A stretch of 64,000 bases of DNA, taken from Pseudomonadota bacterium. Its GTDB lineage: Bacteria; Pseudomonadota; Alphaproteobacteria; Dongiales; Dongiaceae. The DNA lies in contig JAJYUT010000002.1 of the NCBI GenBank assembly GCA_021792365.1, forward strand, positions 764,313 through 828,312, read 5' to 3'. Shown piece after piece: positions 43,392 through 56,074 of this stretch (positions within the stretch are counted from its first letter, which is position 1; every line of letters starts with the position of its first letter). The notes below the pieces were generated by a model that was not told where the DNA came from, searched no databases, and worked only from the letters and a program-made list of their open reading frames with translations. The translations under genes and the position numbers were made by a program.

Positions 43392-43957
43392 ACGATCCCC
43401 TCCCTGCTTTTCTTTGCCGCGGCGCCGCGCTCGATGTGAACGCCGGCGCCTACACACGTTCGGTGCTGGCGGCCGCCGCATGAAAGTCGGCTGCGCCTTG
43501 GTTCCTATGCCAGCGAAGACCCGTTCCGAGCCTCATCGCGCTTGGTGCCATCGGCCCTACGCAACGATGTCACAGGCCTTAGAATCTTGAAATTCGAATT
43601 ATTCGAACGACAGCGTAGGAAAAGCCGAAGCAAAACCCCGGCTCCAGAGCTGTCGGGTGGGCTCATCTGCTTGCCATGCCGAGGTGACGAGCGCGATGAC
43701 GCCATCCGGGATCAGGCGGCAAGCACTCCGCGAAGCGCTATCCCGTCCGTACGCGGTGACTGACATTATCATCATGCTCGCGTTGCAGAGCTCCAACGCG
43801 ATCTCCGGATTGCCGCAGGCTTTCTGTTCACGTATCGATCGGCGGGTCAGGCCGGGTTCCGTCAGCCGAGCGGAACGCATCGTCACCCGCGCGGTTTTCG
43901 ACCAGAGAGCCGGCGCTGACTTGCGCCGCGCTCATTTTGGCAGGGCGGAGCGGCGCC
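43392..43957. other. 566-base divergent intergenic region
   Basis: Separates the ABC importer operon from the esterase gene. Small open frames on both strands (for example 43599-43886 minus and 43657-43965 plus) lack ribosome sites and recognisable products. The stretch 43580-43620 is AT-richer than its surroundings and may hold a promoter, but I see no clear -35/-10 pair or operator. Confidence 0.5.
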
Positions 43958-45298
43958 ATGGCTGAGCCGAGAATTGCGGAAACCGCGCGCCAGAATACGC
44001 AGATTGCCATCACCAAGGCCGTGCAGCACGCGGCGGAGACGCTGCCGGCGCCCGAGCGCGCGGACGAATTCGGCGCGATGTTCGCGCGCTTCGGCGAGGC
44101 GCGCGTGGTCCTGCTGGGCGAAGCGACCCACGGCACGTCCGAGTTCTACCGGGCGCGCGCGGCCATCACCCGGCAGCTGATCCGGCATCACAACTTCAAC
44201 ATCGTTGCCGTCGAGGCGGACTGGCCTGATGCCGCACGGATCGATCGCTGTGTCCGGCATCATGCTCCGCGCCCAGCGCGCGACCGCGCTTTCGCCCGGT
44301 TCCCCGGCTGGATGTGGCGCAACGTCGAGGTGATGGAGTTCGCCGACTGGCTGCGCGCCCACAATGAGTCGCTTCCGCCCGATCAGCGTGCTTCCTTTCA
44401 TGGGCTGGACGTCTACAGCCTCGGCGCGTCGATCGCGGCGGTGCTCGACTACCTCGAGCGGGTCGATCCGAAGGCTGCCGCGACCGCGCGCAACCGCTAC
44501 GGCTGCTTGACACCCTGGCATGAGGAACCGTCGGGCTACGGCCGCGCGGTCCTGCGCGGCAAGAAGGATCCGTGCGAGGATGGGGTCGTCACACAACTGG
44601 AAGAGCTTCTGGCGAACCGCCTCAACTATCTGCGTGAGGACGGCGAGGCCTTCTTCGACGCGGTGCAGAATGCACGGATCATACGCGCGGCCGAGCAGTA
44701 CTACCGCGTCATGTATCAGGGCTCGCGCGAGTCCTGGAACCTGCGCGACCGGCACATGTTCGACACACTGCAGGCGCTGCTCGCCAGCCGGCCGGATTCC
44801 AAGGCCGTCGTCTGGGCGCACAATTCGCATATCGGCAATGCCGCCGCGACGGCGATGGGCTGGCAGGGCGAGTTCAATATCGGCGAGCTGTGCCGTATCG
44901 CCCATGGCGATGATGCCGTCCTGATCGGCTTCGGGACCGATCGCGGCACGGTCGCGGCCGCCGGCGAATGGAATGGTCCCATGGAGGTGATGACGGTGCG
45001 GCCGGCCCGGCCCGACAGCTACGAATACGCCTTCCGGAAGACCGGCATCGTCCGGTCTCTCGCCTCCTGGCACGGCGGCGGTGCGCGCGGGCTGACGGAT
45101 ACACTTGGTGAGTCCATGCTGGAGCGGGCGATCGGCGTGATCTATCGTCCGGAGAGCGAACTGATGAGCCACTATTTCGAGGCGGTGCTCGCCGAGCAGT
45201 TCGACGCCTATGTGTGGTTCGAGGAGACCAAGGCGGTGACGCCGCTGTCTGCGGGGCGGCGGCAAGGCGTGCCCGAAACCTATCCCTTCGGCCTGTGA
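43958..45298 (+). CDS. Erythromycin esterase-like protein
   Basis: A 446-residue protein of the EreA/EreB/succinoglycan-biosynthesis-like hydrolase family. The two conserved catalytic blocks are LLGEATHGTSEFYRAR (Glu and His) and AVVWAHNSHIGNA (His), with IVAVEADWPD between. Most chromosomal members are not proven to act on macrolides. The start at 43958 (MAEPRIAETARQ) follows GGAGCGGCGCC; an ATG at 43937 adds seven residues. The next gene starts two bases after its stop, so it leads a three-gene unit with a hydrolase and a phosphoribosyltransferase. Confidence 0.92.
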   Translation: MAEPRIAETARQNTQIAITKAVQHAAETLPAPERADEFGAMFARFGEARVVLLGEATHGTSEFYRARAAITRQLIRHHNFNIVAVEADWPDAARIDRCVRHHAPRPARDRAFARFPGWMWRNVEVMEFADWLRAHNESLPPDQRASFHGLDVYSLGASIAAVLDYLERVDPKAAATARNRYGCLTPWHEEPSGYGRAVLRGKKDPCEDGVVTQLEELLANRLNYLREDGEAFFDAVQNARIIRAAEQYYRVMYQGSRESWNLRDRHMFDTLQALLASRPDSKAVVWAHNSHIGNAAATAMGWQGEFNIGELCRIAHGDDAVLIGFGTDRGTVAAAGEWNGPMEVMTVRPARPDSYEYAFRKTGIVRSLASWHGGGARGLTDTLGESMLERAIGVIYRPESELMSHYFEAVLAEQFDAYVWFEETKAVTPLSAGRRQGVPETYPFGL

Positions 45299-45300
45299 GT

Positions 45301-45954
45301 ATGACTTCTGGCACCGAGGTCCGTCCCGTCGAGATCGGTACGCTCAAGCTGCAGGCGCTGCTGGGCGTGCCAGACGACGCCGACAGCCTCGTCATCTTCG
45401 CCCATGGCAGCGGCAGCGGGCGCCTCAGCCCGCGCAACAATCATGTCGCGGCCGCCCTGCGCGACGCAGGTCTCGCAACCCTGTTGCTCGATCTTCTGAC
45501 GCCGGCCGAAGAGCGCGATCGCGCCAATGTCTTCGATATTCCCTTGCTCGCCGCGCGCCTGATTGTGGCGACCGACTGGGCGGCACAGCAGCCCGAGACG
45601 AAAGCGCTGCGGGTCGGCTATTTCGGCGCCAGCACCGGCGGGGGCGCGGCGCTCGTCGCCGCTGCCGACGCGCCGGAGCGGGTTCATGCCGTGGTCTCCC
45701 GCGGCGGGCGGCCGGACCTGGCCAGCGCGGCGCTGCCGCAGGTCCGCGCGCCGACGCTCCTGATCGTTGGCGGCGGCGATGCGCCGGTGATCGAACTCAA
45801 TCAGCGGGCGTTGGCTCGTCTGAAGAGCAAAACCGAGCTGGTGATCGTGCGGGACGCCGGGCATCTGTTCGAGGAGCCAGGCACCATGGACATCGTGGTG
45901 CAGCACGCACAACGCTGGTTCCACGCGCATCTCGGTGCGCGGAGGGCAGCGTGA
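45301..45954 (+). CDS. Dienelactone-hydrolase-like alpha/beta hydrolase
   Basis: Cytoplasmic hydrolase of 217 residues. The oxyanion region is FAHGSGSGRLSPRN, the nucleophile is Ser111 in GASTGGG, the acid D160 (VGGGDAPV) and the histidine His188 (DAGHLFEEPG). It starts two bases after the esterase gene and overlaps the phosphoribosyltransferase start by four bases. In some bacteria a hydrolase of this kind is fused to the phosphoribosyltransferase domain, which supports a shared function, still unknown. Confidence 0.9.
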   Translation: MTSGTEVRPVEIGTLKLQALLGVPDDADSLVIFAHGSGSGRLSPRNNHVAAALRDAGLATLLLDLLTPAEERDRANVFDIPLLAARLIVATDWAAQQPETKALRVGYFGASTGGGAALVAAADAPERVHAVVSRGGRPDLASAALPQVRAPTLLIVGGGDAPVIELNQRALARLKSKTELVIVRDAGHLFEEPGTMDIVVQHAQRWFHAHLGARRAA

Positions 45955-46625
45955 TGATCGGCAGGGCGGAAACATTCCTGGACCGGCGCGATGCCGGATC
46001 GCGCCTGGCCGCTGCGCTGGAGCGGTTCAAGGCGGACAAGCCGGTCATCCTCGCTCTGCCGCGCGGCGGCGTGCCGGTGGCGTTCGAGGTCGCGCGCGCC
46101 CTCGCTGCCGAACTCGACCTCCTGCTGGTGCGCAAGATCGGCGCGCCGGGCCATCAGGAGCTGGCGATCGGCGCGGTCGTCGATGGGAAGAATCCGCAAC
46201 TCGTCCTCAATGACGAGATCATCGCGCGCGCGGTGCCGCCCGCCGGCTACATCGAAGCAGAGCAGGCGCGCCAATTGGCCGAGATCGAGCGCCGTCGCCA
46301 GCTCTATCGCGGCGACGCACCACCGCCCGACACCAGGGGGCGAACCGTAATCGTCGTCGACGACGGCATCGCGACCGGCGCGACCGTGAAGGCAGCGTTG
46401 CGCGGCGTGCGCCAGAATGAGCCGCGGCGCCTGATCCTCGCCGTGCCGGTCGCGCCGCCGGGCACGCTCGAGGAACTGGCGCACAAATGCGACGAGATCG
46501 TCTGCCTGTCGGCGCCGGAACGGTTTCGCGCGGTGGGCAGCCATTATGTCGATTTCGACCAGACCAGCGATGGGGAGGTCGTGAGCCTGCTGGCAGAAGC
46601 GAGAGCCGCGCGGCCAGCCATCTGA
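45951..46625 (+). CDS. Type I phosphoribosyltransferase-like protein
   Basis: A 224-residue protein with the PRPP-binding motif VIVVDDGIATGAT (D137, D138) and an N-terminal ALPRGGVPVAFEVARALAAE, the pattern of the free-standing phosphoribosyltransferases often paired with dienelactone hydrolases. The region 95-125 forms a helical hood. Substrate unknown; a purine or pyrimidine salvage name is not justified. Its ATG overlaps the stop of the hydrolase by four bases. Confidence 0.92.
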   Translation: MMIGRAETFLDRRDAGSRLAAALERFKADKPVILALPRGGVPVAFEVARALAAELDLLLVRKIGAPGHQELAIGAVVDGKNPQLVLNDEIIARAVPPAGYIEAEQARQLAEIERRRQLYRGDAPPPDTRGRTVIVVDDGIATGATVKAALRGVRQNEPRRLILAVPVAPPGTLEELAHKCDEIVCLSAPERFRAVGSHYVDFDQTSDGEVVSLLAEARAARPAI

Positions 46626-47701: not shown

Positions 47702-50700
47702 TCAGCTCCCGCCCTGGCTCTCCTGGTCGCTGAGGCTGGTCTTCTTCAGGCGCTCGCGGTAATCCGCCACGAAGGCATCGATGCGGTCCACGCTGGCCAT
47801 TTCGGCGGACACGGATTCGACCAGGCCGTTATCGGCGGCCGTCAGCATCGCGAAGGCCGTGGCCTGTTCCGTGCCCTCCATGCGCTTGCCGTATTGATTG
47901 GCGAGGGACTTCAGGCCGCGGCGATCGGACGCGAGCGACAAGGCGACGGCGCGATTCAGCAGCAGGGGCGCGACCCGATCCCTGAAATGCTGCTCCTGCC
48001 TGGCCTGGAGCTCCGTTTCCGCTTCGGCGCTGCGCACCGAGGCGGCCGGATCCTTGGTGGGATCCATGACCACCTTGAGGGCCGCGCGCTCATCCGCCAT
48101 CGCCTGCTCCTCGCCGGCGATCAGCTCGCCCAGGGCCGTCGCGGCCGCCGGCCATTCGCGCGTGCGCCACTGCATGTCGGCGCGCAGCCACTTCGCCTCC
48201 AGGCTGTCATCACCCCCGAGAATGCGCAGGCCCCCCAGCGTGTCGCCGGTGTCGAAGGTGGCGCGCGCCTCCAGGCGCCTGCGCTCCGCCGCCATGTCGG
48301 GTGGTATCAGGTCGTCGGTTGCGCTCTCCTTCAGCGCCTTGAGCGCCAGTTCCGGCGTGTGGTCCAGCATCCGGATGGCAGCCAGGCGGGTGCCGGCATG
48401 CACCTTGTCGAGGCCGGACAGCCGCTTCTGCACCAGGGTGTCGAGCAGCACCGCCGCGCGGTCCAGCAGATCCACGTTCACCAGCCGGTTCGCCAGCAGC
48501 GACATCATGCGATCGCCGTCCGCGCCGGCGGGCGTCAGCTCGCGGAACTCGTCATAGAGCGCGATGGCGGTGAGTGGCGGAAGCCGGTCCGCGCCATCCT
48601 CCAGGTAAAGGTCGCGGAACGCCGCCGACATCTGCTCGCCCACCTCCTTCGCTTCCGCCCGATCGGCGAAATTGGCGGCCGCGGCGCGCAACGCGATCAG
48701 GCCCTTGCGCGGCTCGTCTTCCGCCAGATAGAGCGCCCCCAGCTTGCGCAGCAGATTGAACTCGAAATCGCCGCCGCGATTGATGAAGCGCAGGGCCTCG
48801 AACGGCGCGATCGCCTCGGCCGGCGTGATCTCACCGGCCTTCAGGCGTTCATCGACCAGATCGAACTGCGAACGCGCCTTGATGTCATCGACCCGCGAGT
48901 CCGTGAGGCTTGCCCACAGCGCCAGCGCGTCCCCGCGCTCACCCATCCGGAGCATGATCTGCCCGTCGAGATAGGTGAGCCGGTCGCGTGCCCTCCGGTC
49001 CGGCTGGTCAAGGCGTAGCGCATCGGCGAAGCGCCGGGCGGCGATCGGATTGCCGGCTTGGCTCAAGACGGCGCCTGCCGTCAGATAGATCGACTCGCGG
49101 ATCGGCTTGGGATAGTCGGCGATGTCAGGCAGGGGCGCAGCGAGGTGCTTTGCCGCCTCGTCCCATTTCCGCTCTTGCGCGGCCAGCAAGCCCAGGAACA
49201 AGTTGACCTCCGCGACGCCGGCCAGCGACTTTTCGGATAAAGTCGCGCGTGCCTGCTCCGCCTGGCCATCGAGGGCCTGGACGGCGCCGATCAGCAGCGC
49301 CAGCCGCCGTTGCTCGAGCTGGGCGCGGCCCTCGGGACTGATCTCCGACAGAGTGCTCTCCGCCTCCTCGATCAGGCCGTGCGCAAAATAGAACTCGCCC
49401 AGAGCCATGCGCGCTGCCGCCTCCTCCGCCGCATTGGCGCCGGTGATCGCGCTCTGCAGCCCGCGCTGGTCGGCAACGAAGGTTGCCGCACCGCCGCGCC
49501 GCCAGGTCGGCAGGTCGAACAGCCCCGGCACGCTCGGCAGGCCCGTCTCGCCCTGCACTGGTGCCTGGGACGCCGCCTGCGTCGCTGCTTCGGGGTCCGC
49601 CTGCTGCTCCGCCGCAGCGACCTGCTCGCTTTCATCCTGTGCTTCGGCGATCGGCTGCAATTGCCCCTGCGGTCTCGTTGTGACGACGACGCCTTGGGGC
49701 AGCGAATCGACCGTGATGGAATCGCCGACACCGGCGATCACCACGCCCTGATAGCTGGGCAGGAGTTGGAACTCCGGCCAGCCCACCTGCTCGGCAATGC
49801 CGAGCCCGGGCGGCCGGAGCGGCACGATCTGGAGGTTGCCGCCGGCGGGATCGGTCACGCTGGCCACGCGGCCGGCGCCGTTGGTCCGCAGCAGCAGGCT
49901 GGACGCCCCATCGGCCAGGTTCTCCCGAGTCATTACGAGAGTCTCGGCCGGCGCATGCCTCCCGCCGGGCGCGAGGTCGACGATCCACGACTTGCCCGAT
50001 GCGGTCAGGCTGACACCCAGCGGCGCGGCCTCCACGATGCGGAGGATGGTGACGTCGGGCACGTCGAGCTTGCTCGCCTTCCCCAGCTTCGTGACATGGG
50101 CATCGCCGAGCAGGCTGCTGACGTCGTTCGACGGCATGTCGAAAGCGAGCCACAGCGCGCCATTGCGGCGGAAGGCGGCAGCGGCTACCGGCTCGGGCCA
50201 GGCAAACATGATCTTGGCGCCGTTCTCGGCCGGCACCACCCGCACCTGGACATCCACCGGCGCGCGCGGAGGCAATGTCGCCTGCTCGATGGCGGGCATC
50301 GGCGGTGGCTCTTGTTGCGTCGCCTGGTCGGCGCCATCCGGCTGATCCGCCGGTGCGGCTGGCGCTGGTGCGCTCGACGCGGGTGCGGCCGGCGCGGGTG
50401 CAGGTGCGGGCTCCGGCATGGCGGGCAGGCTTTGCAGCGCGAAGACCGCCGCTGGCGCGGGCTCCCCGGGCTGTGCTGGAGACGGCAGCGCCGGGATCTC
50501 CTGCGAAGCTGGTTGTGGCGGAGCCTCCGGGACGGGCGCTTGCGTGGAAACGGGCGCCTGCGTGGAAGCAGTCTGCTCAGGCGGCGGCGCAGGCGCCTCC
50601 GCCATCGTGCCCGATGCCTTCGTGGCTTCCGGCGCGGGTTCCGGCGCGGCCGGAATGGTGGGCGCGGCGTTGCCTCGCTCGGCCTGTGCCGCCTTCGCCG

Positions 50701-51598
50701 GCACGCGCAGATCGGGCGCCGGGCCCGCCGCCTTCGCGGGTCGCATGATGTCGAGCACCACGGTGCGGCCCAGGCGGAAATCGCGCAGGCTCGCCCCCGG
50801 CGCGAGAGTCAGATAGATGCGCGCGATTGCGTCGTTGACCGCCGCGATCTGGGCCAGTTCCTTCGGCAGGTCCCGGCGGACGCGATCGAGATCGATGTCT
50901 GCGGGAGCGGTGAACTCGATTTCGATACGCTCGCTTGCGCGGTTGACGCGGTACCCGATCCGGCTCGGCCAATCGATGGCGAGGCGCATGAAAGTGCCGT
51001 GGTCGCCGTGGCGCGCCACGATCCTCGGCGGCGCGTCGGCGTTCGCCGCCGGTGCGGCGCCCGCCTGGCCCGATCCCGGCTTGATGATCCGCGGCTCGGC
51101 AGGCTTCGGAGCTTCCGCCTTGAGCGCCTCGACCTTGGGCGCATCTGTTTTGGGCGCTTCGCTGACCTGCGTTCCGGCGCCCGTCTCGATCGGCACCGGT
51201 CCGGCCGCCGTCCGTGAGCCGACCGGGCGCAGGTCGATGACGATCTTGCCCTCTTCCGCCCATCGCTGGAGCGTCACCGGTTGCACGAGGTCCAGCTCGA
51301 TGCGCCGCCCGCGCATGGCGGCGGGACCATCGATATAGGTATTCAGGAAGCGCAGGGCGTTCGTGAGATCGACCGAGACCGGCTCGGAGAACGTGATGAT
51401 CAGCTTGTCGTCCCTGATCTCTGCGCCGGTGACGCGGCCTCCGGCGCGATCCAGGACGAACCGGCCGAATTGCTCATGGGTCCAGCCGCGGGCGAAGATC
51501 GTGGAATCGGCGAGCGCGCACAGCGGCAAGGCCGCCAATGAAATGGCCGCACCGACGCCTGCGAAAAGACGGTGCCGAAAGGTCCGGCTCATACGCAC
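47702..51598 (-). CDS. Large secreted TPR protein with AMIN-like domains, in the chemotaxis operon
   Basis: A 1298-residue protein with a signal peptide (cleavage near ALPLCALADS, about 30). Two beta-rich segments (about 35-125 and 195-290) look like AMIN-type envelope-targeting modules, with LDLVQPVTLQRWAEEGKIVI and FRLGRTVVLDI as repeated strand patterns. A Pro/Ala/Gln-rich linker covers about 290-440, a third beta region about 445-620, and a helical-repeat (TPR-like) region about 690-1250 with AARMALGEFYFAHGLIEEAE as the clearest unit. It lies 154 bases after cheZ on the same strand. I do not recognise a named function; a scaffold around the flagellar motor or cell pole is a reasonable guess. 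Confidence 0.82.
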   Translation of the reverse strand: MRMSRTFRHRLFAGVGAAISLAALPLCALADSTIFARGWTHEQFGRFVLDRAGGRVTGAEIRDDKLIITFSEPVSVDLTNALRFLNTYIDGPAAMRGRRIELDLVQPVTLQRWAEEGKIVIDLRPVGSRTAAGPVPIETGAGTQVSEAPKTDAPKVEALKAEAPKPAEPRIIKPGSGQAGAAPAANADAPPRIVARHGDHGTFMRLAIDWPSRIGYRVNRASERIEIEFTAPADIDLDRVRRDLPKELAQIAAVNDAIARIYLTLAPGASLRDFRLGRTVVLDIMRPAKAAGPAPDLRVPAKAAQAERGNAAPTIPAAPEPAPEATKASGTMAEAPAPPPEQTASTQAPVSTQAPVPEAPPQPASQEIPALPSPAQPGEPAPAAVFALQSLPAMPEPAPAPAPAAPASSAPAPAAPADQPDGADQATQQEPPPMPAIEQATLPPRAPVDVQVRVVPAENGAKIMFAWPEPVAAAAFRRNGALWLAFDMPSNDVSSLLGDAHVTKLGKASKLDVPDVTILRIVEAAPLGVSLTASGKSWIVDLAPGGRHAPAETLVMTRENLADGASSLLLRTNGAGRVASVTDPAGGNLQIVPLRPPGLGIAEQVGWPEFQLLPSYQGVVIAGVGDSITVDSLPQGVVVTTRPQGQLQPIAEAQDESEQVAAAEQQADPEAATQAASQAPVQGETGLPSVPGLFDLPTWRRGGAATFVADQRGLQSAITGANAAEEAAARMALGEFYFAHGLIEEAESTLSEISPEGRAQLEQRRLALLIGAVQALDGQAEQARATLSEKSLAGVAEVNLFLGLLAAQERKWDEAAKHLAAPLPDIADYPKPIRESIYLTAGAVLSQAGNPIAARRFADALRLDQPDRRARDRLTYLDGQIMLRMGERGDALALWASLTDSRVDDIKARSQFDLVDERLKAGEITPAEAIAPFEALRFINRGGDFEFNLLRKLGALYLAEDEPRKGLIALRAAAANFADRAEAKEVGEQMSAAFRDLYLEDGADRLPPLTAIALYDEFRELTPAGADGDRMMSLLANRLVNVDLLDRAAVLLDTLVQKRLSGLDKVHAGTRLAAIRMLDHTPELALKALKESATDDLIPPDMAAERRRLEARATFDTGDTLGGLRILGGDDSLEAKWLRADMQWRTREWPAAATALGELIAGEEQAMADERAALKVVMDPTKDPAASVRSAEAETELQARQEQHFRDRVAPLLLNRAVALSLASDRRGLKSLANQYGKRMEGTEQATAFAMLTAADNGLVESVSAEMASVDRIDAFVADYRERLKKTSLSDQESQGGS

Positions 51599-51752
51599 CC
51601 GAATTTGTGGCGGCGCCCATTCCCCAAGAATCGGGCGCCCCTGACCGTGCAGATTACAATATGGCCCGGCGGCTGTCCCAGCCCCTCCGAGCGATCGATA
51701 TCCGACCGAAGGACGGCCACAGCGGCGGCGGGATCGCCGCGCTGAGCAGGCG

Positions 51753-52427
51753 TCAGTCGAAGCTGGCCAGTAGCGCGTCGATGTCGGCCTGCTTGCCGGC
51801 GTCGTCCGGCAGTTGCGGTCCGTTCAGCAGCCGCTCGTCGGAGGATTTCTGCGGCTCCTCCCGCGGCTGGCTCTCGCGATATCTCTGGATCTCGTCGCCG
51901 AACGCCGCGACCAGCTTCTCGACCCGCTCCTCGATGTGCTTCAGCGTCTTCACCACCTTCGTTATGCGCTGGCCGGTGATGTCCTGGAAATTGCAGGATT
52001 CGTACACCTGGGTGACCGCGTTCGTCACCTGCTCGGCCACCTCGGCCGGCATCTTGTCGGTCAGGCTCTCGAGCAGCTCCATGGCCTGCAGGATGCCGTT
52101 GGTCGCCTCCTCGGTCGAGCCGACGATGGCATCCAGCTCGTCCGTCGCCTTCGGCAGATGCTCCGAGGTGATGTCGTCCGGGCGCAAGGCCGCGATCTCG
52201 CGCTTGGCCGACAGGATGTACTTCGCCAGCCCCTCGAGCTCCGCATAGACCTTGAGATTGATTTCGGACAGATCGCCCTCCAGCGAATGCAGCATCTCGC
52301 CCACGACCTCGGCCACGTCCTCCCGGCTGGGGGAGCGGCTCTTCCCCTGGAGCTCGCACAGGCGCGCGTTCAGCTCCGGCGGCATCCCGGGATCACCGGA
52401 CCTCCCAATCTTCGACATCGCTGTCAT
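51753..52427 (-). CDS. cheZ: CheY-phosphate phosphatase CheZ
   Basis: Dephosphorylates CheY-P. The 224 residues form a long helical hairpin; the active site is ESCNFQDITGQRI, where D149 and Q153 correspond to E. coli D143 and Q147. After a charged, Pro-containing linker (about 185-205) the tail KQADIDALLASFD is the CheY-docking helix. Many alphaproteobacteria lack CheZ and use phosphate sinks instead, but it is known in Rhodospirillales. It begins three bases after the cheY stop. Confidence 0.93.
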   Translation of the reverse strand: MTAMSKIGRSGDPGMPPELNARLCELQGKSRSPSREDVAEVVGEMLHSLEGDLSEINLKVYAELEGLAKYILSAKREIAALRPDDITSEHLPKATDELDAIVGSTEEATNGILQAMELLESLTDKMPAEVAEQVTNAVTQVYESCNFQDITGQRITKVVKTLKHIEERVEKLVAAFGDEIQRYRESQPREEPQKSSDERLLNGPQLPDDAGKQADIDALLASFD

Positions 52428-52430
52428 GAC

Positions 52431-52817
52431 CTAGAAGTTGCCGAGGACGGAGGAAAGCTTGGTCTTGAGGGTCGCCGCGTTGAAGGGCTTGACGATGTAG
52501 TTGTTGACGCCGGCCTCCTTGGCAGCAACCACGTTCTCGGTCTTGCTTTCCGCGGTGATCATGATGAAGGGCAGGTTCTTGAGCTTGGAATCGGCGCGCA
52601 CTTCGCGCAGCAACTGGATGCCCGTCATCGGCTCCATGTTCCAGTCGGAGATCACCAGGCCATAGTCCTTGTCGCGCAGCTTCTGCAGCGCCATCGAGCC
52701 GTCGGTGGCCTCGTCGACATTGTTGAAGCCGAGCTGCTTCAACAGGTTGCGGATGATCCGCAACATCGTCTTGTAGTCATCCACGATCAGGATGTTCATA
52801 TTCATGTCGACTGACAT
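52431..52817 (-). CDS. cheY: Chemotaxis response regulator CheY
   Basis: Single-domain receiver of 128 residues that binds FliM to change motor rotation. Acid pocket D13/D14 (ILIVDD), phosphoacceptor D58 (LVISDWNMEPMTG), T88 (FIMITAES) and K110 (NYIVKPF). The ATG at 52817 follows AAAGGAAAGTACC. It forms an operon with cheZ. A perfect CtrA box lies 90 bases upstream, and fliM, its docking partner, is encoded 1.4 kb upstream. Confidence 0.97.
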   Translation of the reverse strand: MSVDMNMNILIVDDYKTMLRIIRNLLKQLGFNNVDEATDGSMALQKLRDKDYGLVISDWNMEPMTGIQLLREVRADSKLKNLPFIMITAESKTENVVAAKEAGVNNYIVKPFNAATLKTKLSSVLGNF

Positions 52818-52906
52818 GGTACTTTCCTTTGTTGTGCCCCGGCCCCGTGATTCCACTCGCTGGAGTATCCGACTTGGCTAGATTCTGAGGATTAGCGGAC
52901 CAACGG

Positions 52907-52960: not shown

Positions 52961-53719
52961 TTATTCCGGAACGGGCAGTTGCCGGCGCTGCGCCAGCTCG
53001 AACGTGATCTCCTTGGCCTTGGTTGGCGTCACCAGCGCCAGGATCGGCGCCGCTTTGCGCTCGTTCATCCGCTCGACTACGTCGAGCAGCACATCCATGT
53101 CCATCTCCTCGAACACCCGCGCGGCCGCCTTCGGCTTCATGTTCTCGTACATCTTGACCAGGCTCGCGAGTTCGGCTTCCTCCTGCTCGCTGCGCGCCTT
53201 GAGCAGGTCCTCGACCATGGCCTGCAGCGCCTTCAGCTCCGCCATCTTCTGTTCCATGCGCTGCTCGGCGGCCGCGATCAGGGCCTCGCGCTCATCCAAC
53301 TGGCGCGCTCGCAGGTCCAGCTCCTCGCGCCGTTTCGCGAGCTGTTGCAGGACATCGACCTCCTCATCCGTATATTCGAACGGATCCTCAACCAGGCCCG
53401 CTTCCTCGTCTATAATCACCGCACCCTCGGGCAGGGCTGCCGTCTCTTCAGGCATCGGTTCTTCCACGCCGATGTCCTGCGCAGCCGGCGGCGTCGTGGC
53501 CGCCTGCTGCTGCGGAGATGAAGCATCCGTCGTGACCGCGGGCTGGGCGGCCGCCTCCGGCTGGCCTTCCGGTTGCGCTTCCGATTGACCTTGAGCGAGC
53601 GATTCGCGGCCGATCGAGACCTCGAACGCGTTCCAGACCGCCCCGACCTTGATGGTCATGGTGCCGGCCAGAGCGAACATCAGGCATGGAAGGAGGCGAA
53701 TGCGCATGGCCAACCTCAT
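52961..53719 (-). CDS. MotE-like flagellar motor chaperone (MgtE N-domain)
   Basis: Exported protein of 252 residues: N-terminal hydrophobic segment (about 5-30), a Gln/Ala/Pro-rich stretch (about 40-80), a long coiled coil (about 120-195) and a C-terminal MgtE-intracellular-N-like domain (YENMKPKAAARVFEEMDMDV, then RKAAPILALVTPTKA). The same layout is found in Sinorhizobium MotE, a periplasmic chaperone for MotC. An alternative start lies at 53707. Its start overlaps the DUF6468 gene by four bases. Confidence 0.85.
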   Translation of the reverse strand: MRLAMRIRLLPCLMFALAGTMTIKVGAVWNAFEVSIGRESLAQGQSEAQPEGQPEAAAQPAVTTDASSPQQQAATTPPAAQDIGVEEPMPEETAALPEGAVIIDEEAGLVEDPFEYTDEEVDVLQQLAKRREELDLRARQLDEREALIAAAEQRMEQKMAELKALQAMVEDLLKARSEQEEAELASLVKMYENMKPKAAARVFEEMDMDVLLDVVERMNERKAAPILALVTPTKAKEITFELAQRRQLPVPE

Positions 53720-54189
53720 CGCAATCCAGAGAGGGCACTGAGGCTTGAGACTTTGCGGGCATCCTCGTCCTCGGCGAACTGAATGACGGGAGCCGCCTGC
53801 ACGGGCGCGGCAGGCGCAGGCCCAGGCGCCGGCGCCGGGCTCATCTGCCGCGATTTGGCGATCACCATCTCCAGGCCGTTGGCGGCGCTCTCCGCGCGTT
53901 CCGTCAGCAGCTTGAGGTCGTCGCCGATCCGTCCGAACTCCGCTGCCATGCCCTGGACGCGGTCCACCCGAGCCTGCAGGTCCTTGCCGGCGAATTCCGC
54001 CGTCGCCTTGAACTGATGCAGGTGGCTCGCGGCCTGGTCGGTCGATTTCGTCAGATCGGCGATCAGCTTCTCGAACTCGCCGCGGCTGTTGCGGATCGCC
54101 GCGATCTGTCGGCTGAAGCGCGCGACATAGAACAGCGTCGCGACCAGCAGGACCGCCAGCACACCGTCAGCAATCAATGACCAGGGCAT
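53716..54189 (-). CDS. DUF6468 flagellar-operon membrane protein
   Basis: A 157-residue protein with one N-terminal membrane segment (about 5-24, LIADGVLAVLLVATLFYVAR), a coiled-coil region (about 25-110, with FEKLIADLTKSTDQAASHL) and a Pro/Ala-rich tail. It matches the DUF6468 pattern, found in alphaproteobacterial flagellar operons, without assigned function. It lies between fliM (21 bases upstream) and motE (four-base overlap). Confidence 0.82.
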   Translation of the reverse strand: MPWSLIADGVLAVLLVATLFYVARFSRQIAAIRNSRGEFEKLIADLTKSTDQAASHLHQFKATAEFAGKDLQARVDRVQGMAAEFGRIGDDLKLLTERAESAANGLEMVIAKSRQMSPAPAPGPAPAAPVQAAPVIQFAEDEDARKVSSLSALSGLR

Positions 54190-54210: not shown

Positions 54211-55296
54211 CTAGAGCTTCATCAGCCGGTCCTGGATCTGGACCGCGATGTGGCCGCCGCGGCGGCCCATGTTGCCGCGGAACAGCTGGACCCCGCCGCA
54301 GCGGAGCTCGACCGGCGAGTTCGGCGTGCATTCGAGCTCCAGTCGCGTTCCCGGCTGCCAGCTCAGCACGTCCCCGAGGGGCACGTTGAATTCGTCGAGC
54401 ACGGCGTCGATTGGAACCTCGGTCTGCCAGAGCTCGCCGGACAGGTGGGTTTCCCAGATCGAGTCGCGGCCGAACTTCTCGCCCATGAACATCTGCAGCA
54501 GCAGCTCACGCACCGGCTCCAGCGTAGCGTAGGGCAGCACCAGCTCGAGCCGGCCGCCGCGATCCTCCATGTCGACGCGCAGGCGCGCGAGCACCGCGGC
54601 ATTGGCCGGCCGCGCGATGGCGGCAAAGCGCGGGTTTGTCTCCAGGCGCTCGAAACGGAAGGTGACCGGCGACAGCGGATCGAAGGTCGATGTGAGGTCG
54701 TTCAGCACCACCCCGATCAGCCGCTCCACCAGGTTGCGCTCGATCGTGGTGTAGGGCCGGCCCTCGATGCGCATCGCGGCGGTACCGCGGCGCCCGCCCA
54801 GCAGCACGTCGACAATCGAATAGGTGAGCGAACTGTCGACCATCAGGAGGCCGAAATTGTCCCATTCCTCCGCCTTGAACACGCCGAGCATGGCAGGCAG
54901 CGGGATGGAGTTGAGGTAATCGCCGAAACGAATGGCCGTGATGCTGTCGAGCGAGACCTCCACGTTGTCGGAGGTGAAGTTGCGCAGCGAGGTGGAGAGC
55001 ATGCGCACCAGGCGGTCGAACACGATCTCCAGCATCGGGAGACGCTCGTACGAGACCAGTGCGCTGTTGATGATCGCTTGGATGCCCGAGGGCTTGTCGT
55101 CATCGCCGCCGCCACCGCCGGCGCCGAGCCCGAGCAGGCTGTCGATCTCGTCCTGGTCGAGGACGCGGTTGGACTTGGGGCCGCTGGCGACCTGTTGCTC
55201 ATCCTGAGCGGCGTCGTCGCCGCCCGCCATGGCTTCCCATTCGGCGGCCGCCGCGCGCTCCTCCTCGCTCATCTCGTCATTATCGTCGGGGACCAT
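54211..55296 (-). CDS. fliM: Flagellar motor switch protein FliM
   Basis: C-ring protein that receives CheY-P and sets rotation direction. The 361 residues have an acidic N-terminus, then the CheY-binding LDQDEIDSLLG (about 46-56), the CheC-like middle domain (about 75-260, with LLMVDSSLTYSIVDVLLGG) and a C-terminal SpoA/FliN-like domain (about 285-355, LGDVLSWQPGTRLELE). It lies 24 bases after fliL. No fliN or fliG is encoded in this window. Confidence 0.97.
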   Translation of the reverse strand: MVPDDNDEMSEEERAAAAEWEAMAGGDDAAQDEQQVASGPKSNRVLDQDEIDSLLGLGAGGGGGDDDKPSGIQAIINSALVSYERLPMLEIVFDRLVRMLSTSLRNFTSDNVEVSLDSITAIRFGDYLNSIPLPAMLGVFKAEEWDNFGLLMVDSSLTYSIVDVLLGGRRGTAAMRIEGRPYTTIERNLVERLIGVVLNDLTSTFDPLSPVTFRFERLETNPRFAAIARPANAAVLARLRVDMEDRGGRLELVLPYATLEPVRELLLQMFMGEKFGRDSIWETHLSGELWQTEVPIDAVLDEFNVPLGDVLSWQPGTRLELECTPNSPVELRCGGVQLFRGNMGRRGGHIAVQIQDRLMKL

Positions 55297-55320: not shown

Positions 55321-55824
55321 TCACTGAACCTGCACGACCTTGAACAGCACATCCTTTACCTTCGCGGGCGTGGCCGCCTTCTGCGCGCGCAGCAGCAGCT
55401 CCTCCCGGAGGCGCTGCAGGCCATCGGAGCCCTGCAGGTCTTCGACGCGAACGCCGCGCAGATAGATCTGGAACTGATCGACCACCCGCGGCAGCACATT
55501 GGGCAGCGTCGCCGAATCCTCCGGCGTGCCCAGTTCCAGCGCCAGCTTCAGCTTGAGATAAGAGTTGCGCTTGCCCGCGGTCGACAGATTCACGGTCATC
55601 TCTTCCAGGTCGTAATAGATCGGCGGATGGCCCGACGGGTCCGCATCCGCATCCGCATGTGCCTCGCCCGACCCGTGACCCTGGAACAGCAGGAACCATG
55701 CCGCAGTGCCGCCCCCGCCGAACAGCAGCAGCGGGAGGATGATGAACAGCACCAGCTTCTTGCCGCTCATCCGTTTTCTTCGAACCGGTGCCGCCGCCGC
55801 CTCGGCTATCGTTTCTTCTGCCAT
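55321..55824 (-). CDS. fliL: Flagellar basal body-associated protein FliL
   Basis: Inner-membrane protein that surrounds and stabilises the stators. From the ATG at 55824 it has 167 residues: a short cytoplasmic basic part (RRKRMSGKK), one membrane segment (about 23-47), and a periplasmic SPFH/stomatin-like domain with YYDLEEMTVNLS and YLKLKLALELG. A longer upstream frame (to 56025) would run through the promoter region and is rejected. First gene of the fliL-fliM-DUF6468-motE unit. Confidence 0.93.
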   Translation of the reverse strand: MAEETIAEAAAAPVRRKRMSGKKLVLFIILPLLLFGGGGTAAWFLLFQGHGSGEAHADADADPSGHPPIYYDLEEMTVNLSTAGKRNSYLKLKLALELGTPEDSATLPNVLPRVVDQFQIYLRGVRVEDLQGSDGLQRLREELLLRAQKAATPAKVKDVLFKVVQVQ

Positions 55825-55901
55825 CAGTGCCCTCGACGATACGCGTGCGCAGACGACTGGAGCCGCCCTCGTCCCTGTGTGCCAAGGTAGGCGCAGGATG
55901 G

Positions 55902-55916
55902 TTAAGACGCGGTAAA
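55902..55916 (-). promoter_or_regulatory. CtrA-like box upstream of fliL
   Basis: Minus-strand TTTACCGCGTCTTAAC fits TTAA-N7-TTAAC with one mismatch in the first half. It lies 78 bases before the fliL ATG. Confidence 0.45.
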
Positions 55917-56074
55917 ATTGGGGCATATGCCAACGGATAGCTGCCTCGCCCGAAACGGTTTGGCAGGAAGTGCCGCCGACCCGGCAGCATCTGCCGCGAG
56001 CCGGTGGGCGGTGCGCCCCGGACACGCCCCGTCGCGCGGCCGCAATCCCCAGGCAATCCGCGCACTTACCCTGC

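Follow-up and report, generated by a model that had tools for sequence, protein, structure and literature searches.

Periplasmic TPR proteins of the flagellar motor have been described from several bacteria, and what is said of them here and below follows passages of the cited papers. MotK, from the Fla2 system of Cereibacter sphaeroides, is a periplasmic protein that combines an AMIN-like head with a TPR-like C-terminal part and is needed for flagellar rotation; MotE is required for rotation as well, and MotK binds MotE and, more weakly, MotB2 (PMC10954123). MotE is unstable without MotK, and MotK-GFP is found at the flagellated pole, dependent on MotA2/MotB2 (PMC10954123). The same paper names CC_2058 as a distant homolog of MotK; CC_2058 is FssB, whose deletion leaves filaments on non-motile cells, as deletion of motB does (PMC7885107). 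A review and a preprint place MotC, MotK, and CC_2058 together with PflA, and count MotE among the E-ring proteins along with FlgY and FlbB (PMC13023049, PMC11870540). PflA spokes position PflB and help scaffold the stators (PMC12222027), and contacts between PflA and FlgY and between MotK and MotE have been published. Here, we analyze a gene for a large TPR protein in a stretch of 64,000 nucleotides, called the window, from a member of the Dongiaceae (Alphaproteobacteria; GenBank assembly GCA_021792365.1, contig JAJYUT010000002.1, positions 764,313 to 828,312 of the forward strand).

With a probability of about 0.86, the window protein belongs, as a representative from the Dongia lineage, to the alphaproteobacterial PflA/MotK/FssB group and serves the flagellar motor as a radial spoke or bracket. 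This reading is favored because the window protein has the features of the group that could be tested decisively, namely a signal peptide, an N-terminal AMIN-like beta-sandwich, a Pro/Ala linker with a long C-terminal TPR region, and motE nearby. The architecture is conserved, homologs co-occur with the flagellum and stand in synteny with motE and often with motB, and the N-terminal model has an AMIN/PflA-like fold.

Distribution and gene neighborhood of the homologs

A sequence profile of the protein matched 18 of 21 genomes from closer and more distant relatives. Among 190 genomes of the class, 108 had a match and 108 had FliM, with both in 101 and neither in 75 (Fisher test 7e-36, uncorrected for relatedness). 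These matches were mostly long, with a few short or weak ones such as those in genomes G122, G148, and G034; the last is probably a false positive, as its AMIN stretch alone matches, which is also seen in G285 and G301 of its family. In a sample of 150 genomes from the whole phylum, a long match (more than 750 of 1154 profile positions) was found in 15, all of them in the class and all with FliM. FliM hits in this sample numbered 110, two of them under the Pfam cut-off; 20 were in genomes of the class, of which 15 had a long match and the other five had none, and no long match was found in the 90 genomes with a FliM hit outside the class. Short stretches only were matched in 14 genomes outside the class (E from 4.7e-6 to 7.3e-4), and an AMIN stretch only in three genomes within it.

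Distances between the gene and fliM were counted in 105 positive genomes, leaving G034, G122, and G176 out of the 108. Both genes lay on one contig in 75, on different contigs in 25, and five genomes were without FliM. The two genes were within 15 kb of each other in 73 of the 75 same-contig pairs (0.8-9.2 kb), and in 72 of these 73 the gene was on the same strand as fliM and downstream of it. In a sample of 19 of the 73 near loci, fliL, fliM, pflI, and motE were present in all 19 (motE split in one), cheZ in ten, and cheY in seven, so the constant partners of the gene are motor genes and not the chemotaxis pair. One locus fetched with these, L083 from genome G142, has fliM far away, and no flagellar neighbor was seen in it.

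A further 19 loci came from 17 of the 25 different-contig genomes together with G144 and G055. Ten had a flagellar or chemotaxis neighbor by profile or Pfam: motE and cheY (L025), cheZ (L084), a MotB-like gene (L087, L089, L092, L096, L097, and L098), or fliP (L088 and L099). Four others were short or outside the examination (L085, L093, L094, and L101). In 18 of 46 loci, a MotB-like gene lies no more than 300 bases ahead of the TPR gene and on its strand; six of these 18 had themselves seeded the profile, and by mechanically assigned start codons the frames overlap in 14. Pfam confirms MotB in two of the 18 (L089 and L098), with another MotB-like frame of L098 under the cut-off. In four loci the motB-like gene is itself preceded by a gene for another MotB-resembling membrane protein (L072:5310-5999, L075:7493-8179, L073:5190-5867, and L078:7921-8622).

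Ten plasmid flagellar stretches (L053-L062) were retrieved and nine scanned, that of Methylobacterium (L062) being left out, and five of the nine had a profile match (L053, L054, L055, L058, and L059). By hhalign, the Sphingobium (E 9.8e-41) and Erythrobacter (9.2e-39) copies are strong, the Azospirillum copy reaches 5e-29, and the Marinovum copy is moderate (2.3e-12 over 429 columns). An unrelated TPR protein of E. coli, BcsC, served as control and scored 9.2e-5 over 137 columns; beside it the Loktanella copy (9.9e-7 over 418 columns) is weak and is not claimed. The shorter copy on plasmid pAB510e of Azospirillum sp. B510 lies in a plasmid flagellar cluster just upstream of motA-motB (L058:20282-22618).

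The gene, its cluster, and the predicted protein

The preliminary description had reported an open reading frame of 1298 residues following cheZ, which is exact, the frame starting with GTG on the minus strand (Table 1). The plus-strand reading of the same interval is interrupted by stops, and a chance reading frame is ruled out by conservation of the gene in many genomes. An alternative ATG at 51592, two codons inside the GTG start, is common to Dongia deserti (L001) and to a metagenome-assembled genome labeled Rhodospirillum (L002), and is probably the true start. These two named relatives match the gene at 73% and 65%, respectively, in the best segment. The description had also set the gene in the midst of fliL, fliM, and motE, a placement that needs amending: the order is fliL-fliM-pflI-like DUF6468-motE-cheY-cheZ-TPR gene, all on the minus strand, with the TPR gene last. 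Beyond it, on the plus strand, lie oxidoreductase, phosphoribosyltransferase, alpha/beta hydrolase, and erythromycin-esterase-like genes, from which it follows that the TPR gene closes the flagellar cluster. The architecture given in that description, a signal peptide, AMIN-like modules, a disordered Pro/Ala linker, and helical repeats, was borne out by hydropathy, Pfam and hhalign profiles, and composition.

Table 1. Features of the TPR gene, its product, and its cluster in the window.
Feature	Position	Strand	Basis or remark
Whole gene, PflA/MotK/FssB-type periplasmic TPR protein (probable)	47702..51598	-	1298 codons counted from GTG 51598
Predicted signal peptide, residues 1-30, putative cleavage after ALA (..ALA|D)	51509..51598	-	Sequence, hydropathy scan, homologs
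AMIN-type module 1, residues 31-127	51218..51508	-	AlphaFold (AF2) pLDDT 82-91 over most; profile match to modules 2 and 3
AMIN-type module 2, residues 186-292	50723..51043	-	pLDDT ~58-75; AmiC and PflA head alignments; profile match
Pro/Ala-rich linker, residues 293-432	50303..50722	-	26% Pro, 29% Ala; between modules 2 and 3
AMIN-type module 3, residues 440-552	49943..50281	-	Profile match to modules 1 and 2
B4 conserved block, residues 553-650	49649..49942	-	Alignment of homologs; invariant D583, P584, G586, G618
TPR helical-repeat region, residues 690-1165	48104..49531	-	Pfam TPR in homologs; AF2 helix pairs
Element between cheZ and TPR gene	51651..51685	-	Alike in three species by eye, spacer otherwise variable
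cheZ	51753..52427	-	Pfam PF04344 7.7e-16
cheY-like response regulator	52431..52856	-	Pfam PF00072 2.1e-29
motE/flgY-type E-ring gene, MgtE_N domain	52961..53719	-	PF03448 3.4e-6, over cut-off
pflI-like DUF6468 gene	53716..54189	-	PF20072 1.6e-10
fliM	54211..55296	-	PF02154 2.7e-64
fliL	55321..56025	-	PF03748 1.4e-18

The pflI-like gene was named for its place between fliL and motE, following PMC10954123. The motE product also matches the FlbB collar model NF047368 at 1.2e-8, under the cut-off of that model. The short element between cheZ and the TPR gene may be a promoter of the TPR gene's own; a scan for the sigma-70 consensus did not list it. Elsewhere in the source genome there are three MotB frames, two of them adjacent (G000:C28:842452-843254; L104 and L105) and the third at G000:C21:290240 (L103). 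The adjacent pair is similar to the pair of motB genes found ahead of the TPR gene in several relatives. In the window at 43937-46625, the erythromycin-esterase-like, hydrolase, and phosphoribosyltransferase genes are consecutive, apparently in the same order as in Dongia deserti.

The protein is predicted to be Sec-exported and periplasmic. Its sole strongly hydrophobic stretch covers residues ~11-30, with a 19-residue mean of 2.14 against at most 1.34 elsewhere, and the signal peptide was called from our own hydropathy scan and the sequence rather than by a dedicated predictor. Scans of Pfam and NCBIfam gave no family dedicated to the protein, which by itself matches only TPR_19 and RPN7 in Pfam, both under cut-off. 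A set of 14 homologs was more informative at E up to 1: AMIN-like PF24837 was found in six (best 4.2e-6), AMIN PF11741 in four (best 0.0073), and TPR_14 in ten (best 9.6e-7). The three AMIN modules, each of about 100 residues, match one another in hhalign with probabilities of 99.4% (1-2), 96.3% (1-3), and 97.1% (2-3). The B4 block is conserved among the 14 aligned homologs and gave no profile match to the AMIN modules; with module 3, it stands between the linker and the TPRs.

Among 61 homologous proteins (one genome counted twice, and one protein with a disrupted reading), the full set of three AMIN modules, B4, and all three TPR blocks is present in 31; two AMIN modules were counted in 14 and four in two, five have TPR blocks only, and nine show other combinations. 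Among the TPR-only proteins are the plasmid copies of Sphingobium and Erythrobacter, and one that is truncated by the end of its contig. Homologs of ~550-655 amino acids with TPR blocks, and with neither AMIN modules nor B4, are encoded at L053:11002-12750, L055:14949-16595, and L080:4996-6963.

AlphaFold models were built from three sequences, likewise for residues 430-1298, and predict modules 1 and 2 as beta-sandwiches, with a predicted local distance difference test score (pLDDT) of 82-91 over most of the first and ~58-75 in the second. Module 3 and B4 fall in a poor part of the model, with no usable prediction. In VIA-align, the top three matches of the N-terminal model are roughly tied: PilQ (Z 10.5, 14 A over 162 residues spanning modules 1 and 2), the AMIN domain of AmiC (Z 9.8, 3.3 A over 101), and the head of Campylobacter PflA (9leq_A; Z 9.4, 2.5 A over 89), the latter two aligning to module 2. 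Two further PilQ entries and a Synechocystis protein follow at Z 8.4-8.7, then small heat-shock folds from 7.6 down. Foldseek gave modest E-values for the N-terminal model (best 1.5e-3) and lists chain 9hmf_K of the Campylobacter motor scaffold, whose listing names no molecule, for both parts of the protein (E 3.5e-2 and 1.1e-5). Taken together, the models offer moderate evidence for AMIN/PflA kinship.

Proposed role, counter-evidence, and alternatives

If the window protein is such a spoke, its binding partners, orientation, contact with peptidoglycan, and loss phenotype can be proposed by analogy with the published systems. The C-terminal TPR superhelix would point to the motor axis, near the MS-ring, and bind the E-ring protein MotE, whose gene is the third one upstream of the TPR gene in the cluster. 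In the outward direction, the AMIN head at the N-terminus and the linker would extend to the stator ring (MotB and FliL) and possibly to peptidoglycan, an anchoring that the AMIN fold suggests. Stators would thereby be kept at a fixed radius and activated, and cells without the protein would be expected to form a filament that fails to rotate. The gene order with MotB-like genes would fit a stator partner made in step.

Several observations weigh against this assignment. Kinship to CC_2058, MotK, MotC, and PflA was judged from architecture, position, and fold and not from direct sequence comparison. A profile search of PDB sequences recovered TPR chains and, weakly, PilQ (E 0.027), and not PflA, which is expected since PflA is described as not conserved in sequence (PMC11870540). 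The AmiC and PflA matches concern module 2, the less confidently modeled of the two, and the Synechocystis protein 5h3k also scores Z 8.4. The better-modeled module 1 aligns best to alpha-crystallin/small heat-shock folds (Z up to 7.6) and thus owes its AMIN label to the profile match with module 2, and VIA-align itself warns that top Z values of 7-8 often occur where there is no true match. The model of residues 430-1298 is weak (mean pLDDT 51.8), with TPR helix pairs at ~70-90 in the core only and poor values elsewhere, and its structural matches are generic TPR chains; PflA is absent from that list, which excludes nothing. No motB adjoins the gene in the window, where a MotB scan gave no hit. 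In the class sample, seven of the 108 genomes with FliM have no match and seven matching genomes have no FliM hit; two of the latter matches are weak (G034 and G176) and five strong (G055, G057, G110, G135, and G162), in drafts said to be 75-97% complete. Five of the further 19 loci have non-flagellar-looking neighbors (L086, L090, L091, L095, and L100; judged by eye except for two Pfam checks), in genomes that do have FliM. Finally, four of the nine plasmid flagellar stretches contain no homolog in the part retrieved (L056 Komagataeibacter, L057 Indioceanicola, L060 Sulfitobacter, and L061 Salipiger).

Among other explanations, the one that survives best, clearly unlikely as it is, would make the protein a stator-specific periplasmic chaperone or activator that stabilizes MotB/MotE during assembly and is not part of the finished motor. 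MotE was itself first proposed in such a role for MotC. The arrangement in 18 of 46 loci, where a MotB-like gene immediately precedes the TPR gene (with frames overlapping in 14), would suit a chaperone, as would the instability of MotE without MotK (PMC10954123), but in its size and its AMIN-linker-TPR build the protein is like the structural spoke PflA, and MotK-GFP resides at the flagellated pole and needs MotA2/MotB2 to do so (PMC10954123). A polar hub like FimV/HubP, placing the flagellum or the chemoreceptor array at the pole, is very improbable. We take the long Pro-rich linker and TPRs to be a likeness to FimV/HubP, and the cheY-cheZ neighbors in the source genome would agree with such a hub. 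FimV/HubP proteins have a LysM domain and a single membrane helix before a cytoplasmic acidic/TPR part, but the hydropathy scan found no second strongly hydrophobic segment, LysM is not among the Pfam matches of the window protein nor among 25 of the 27 families listed for the homologs, and cheY/cheZ are missing beside many homologs that retain motE and pflI. Least credible of all is a peptidoglycan-binding envelope protein that regulates cell-wall enzymes and is flagellar by neighborhood only, as AMIN modules in amidases (the AmiC match), copies outside flagellar clusters, and the seven matching genomes without a FliM hit (five of them strong matches) might suggest, but homologs track FliM closely across the 190 genomes, and class genomes without FliM in the phylum sample have no long match.

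The preferred reading, a motor spoke, agrees with the preliminary description insofar as that proposed a secreted scaffold organizing the motor: homologs track FliM, stand mostly beside fliL/fliM/pflI/motE or directly after a motB-like gene, and have an N-terminal model that matches PilQ, AmiC, and PflA heads. That proposal would have been refuted by a family found for the most part outside flagellar neighborhoods or in bacteria that do not swim; the survey did not refute it, though some copies do lie away from flagellar genes. The further suggestion of a role at chemoreceptor arrays fares poorly, with the protein predicted to be periplasmic and cheZ in ten and cheY in seven of the near loci against motE in all 19. 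The supposed lack of a named counterpart finds no support either: this kind of protein is already described, and its members FssB/CC_2058, MotK, and PflA are named, with phenotypes. Its distribution in Alphaproteobacteria may be known already as well, given that the survey in preprint PMC11870540 queried the class with CC_2058, MotK, and MotC. In the literature passages, we did not find the three-module AMIN head, B4, or motB adjacency described for this protein group, save for MotC after motB in Sinorhizobium.

What the analysis adds is to place a very large protein, for which neither Pfam nor NCBIfam has a dedicated family, in the motor of most of the flagellated Alphaproteobacteria in the samples, with its gene beside that for the E-ring. 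The E-ring was first seen in Caulobacter in 1979, and it was assigned to MotE-type proteins only recently. The analysis also supplies a usable profile for proteins of a kind said to be difficult to recognize from sequence, connects the family to MotB-like genes through gene order, and offers B4 as a domain to mutate. It is conceivable, if doubtful, that most alphaproteobacterial motors carry an enlarged spoke, in which the three-AMIN head and B4 do the work shared by PflA and PflB in Campylobacter, so that a single protein, whose translation is often coordinated with that of a MotB-like one, ties together E-ring, stator, and peptidoglycan; in that case B4 would represent a new domain for binding the stator or the cell wall.

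Comparison with described motor proteins

Among the described proteins, FlcA and FlcB of Borrelia burgdorferi are collar components assembled on FlbB, the spirochaete counterpart of MotE (PMC13023049); FlcB is called similar to MotE partners in that paper, and is set beside the window protein by description. MotC of Sinorhizobium meliloti is, like the window protein, periplasmic and TPR-rich; MotE binds it, and it is degraded without MotE (PMC13023049). Unlike in the window cluster, motC lies downstream of motB, and motE is elsewhere, between flgI and flgH (PMC10954123).

PflA of Campylobacter jejuni and Helicobacter pylori shares an AMIN-like beta-sandwich head, a flexible linker, and a TPR superhelix with the window protein, and partners FlgY, a MotE-type ring protein (PMC11870540, PMC12222027). 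As described, PflA has a single beta-sandwich and a linker that runs directly into the TPRs, whereas module 3 and B4 intervene in the window protein; the PflA linker wraps PflB, for which no search was made on the window side.

MotK shares the AMIN-like N-terminus, a partly disordered Pro-rich middle, a TPR-like C-terminal part, and an operon with fliL, pflI, and motE (PMC10954123). It is about half the size of the window protein (residues up to 652 are mentioned), motA stands between motE and motK, and the passages of that paper report neither a repeated AMIN head nor a B4-like block. FssB of Caulobacter crescentus (CC_2058/CCNA_02137) is described with one AMIN-like module (residues 36-132), compared by description with the three of the window protein. 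It shares with the window protein the signal peptide, the TPR region, and the AMIN-like N-terminus (PMC7885107, PMC10954123, PMC13023049), and its gene lies downstream of motE (CC_2059), as the window gene lies downstream of its own motE.

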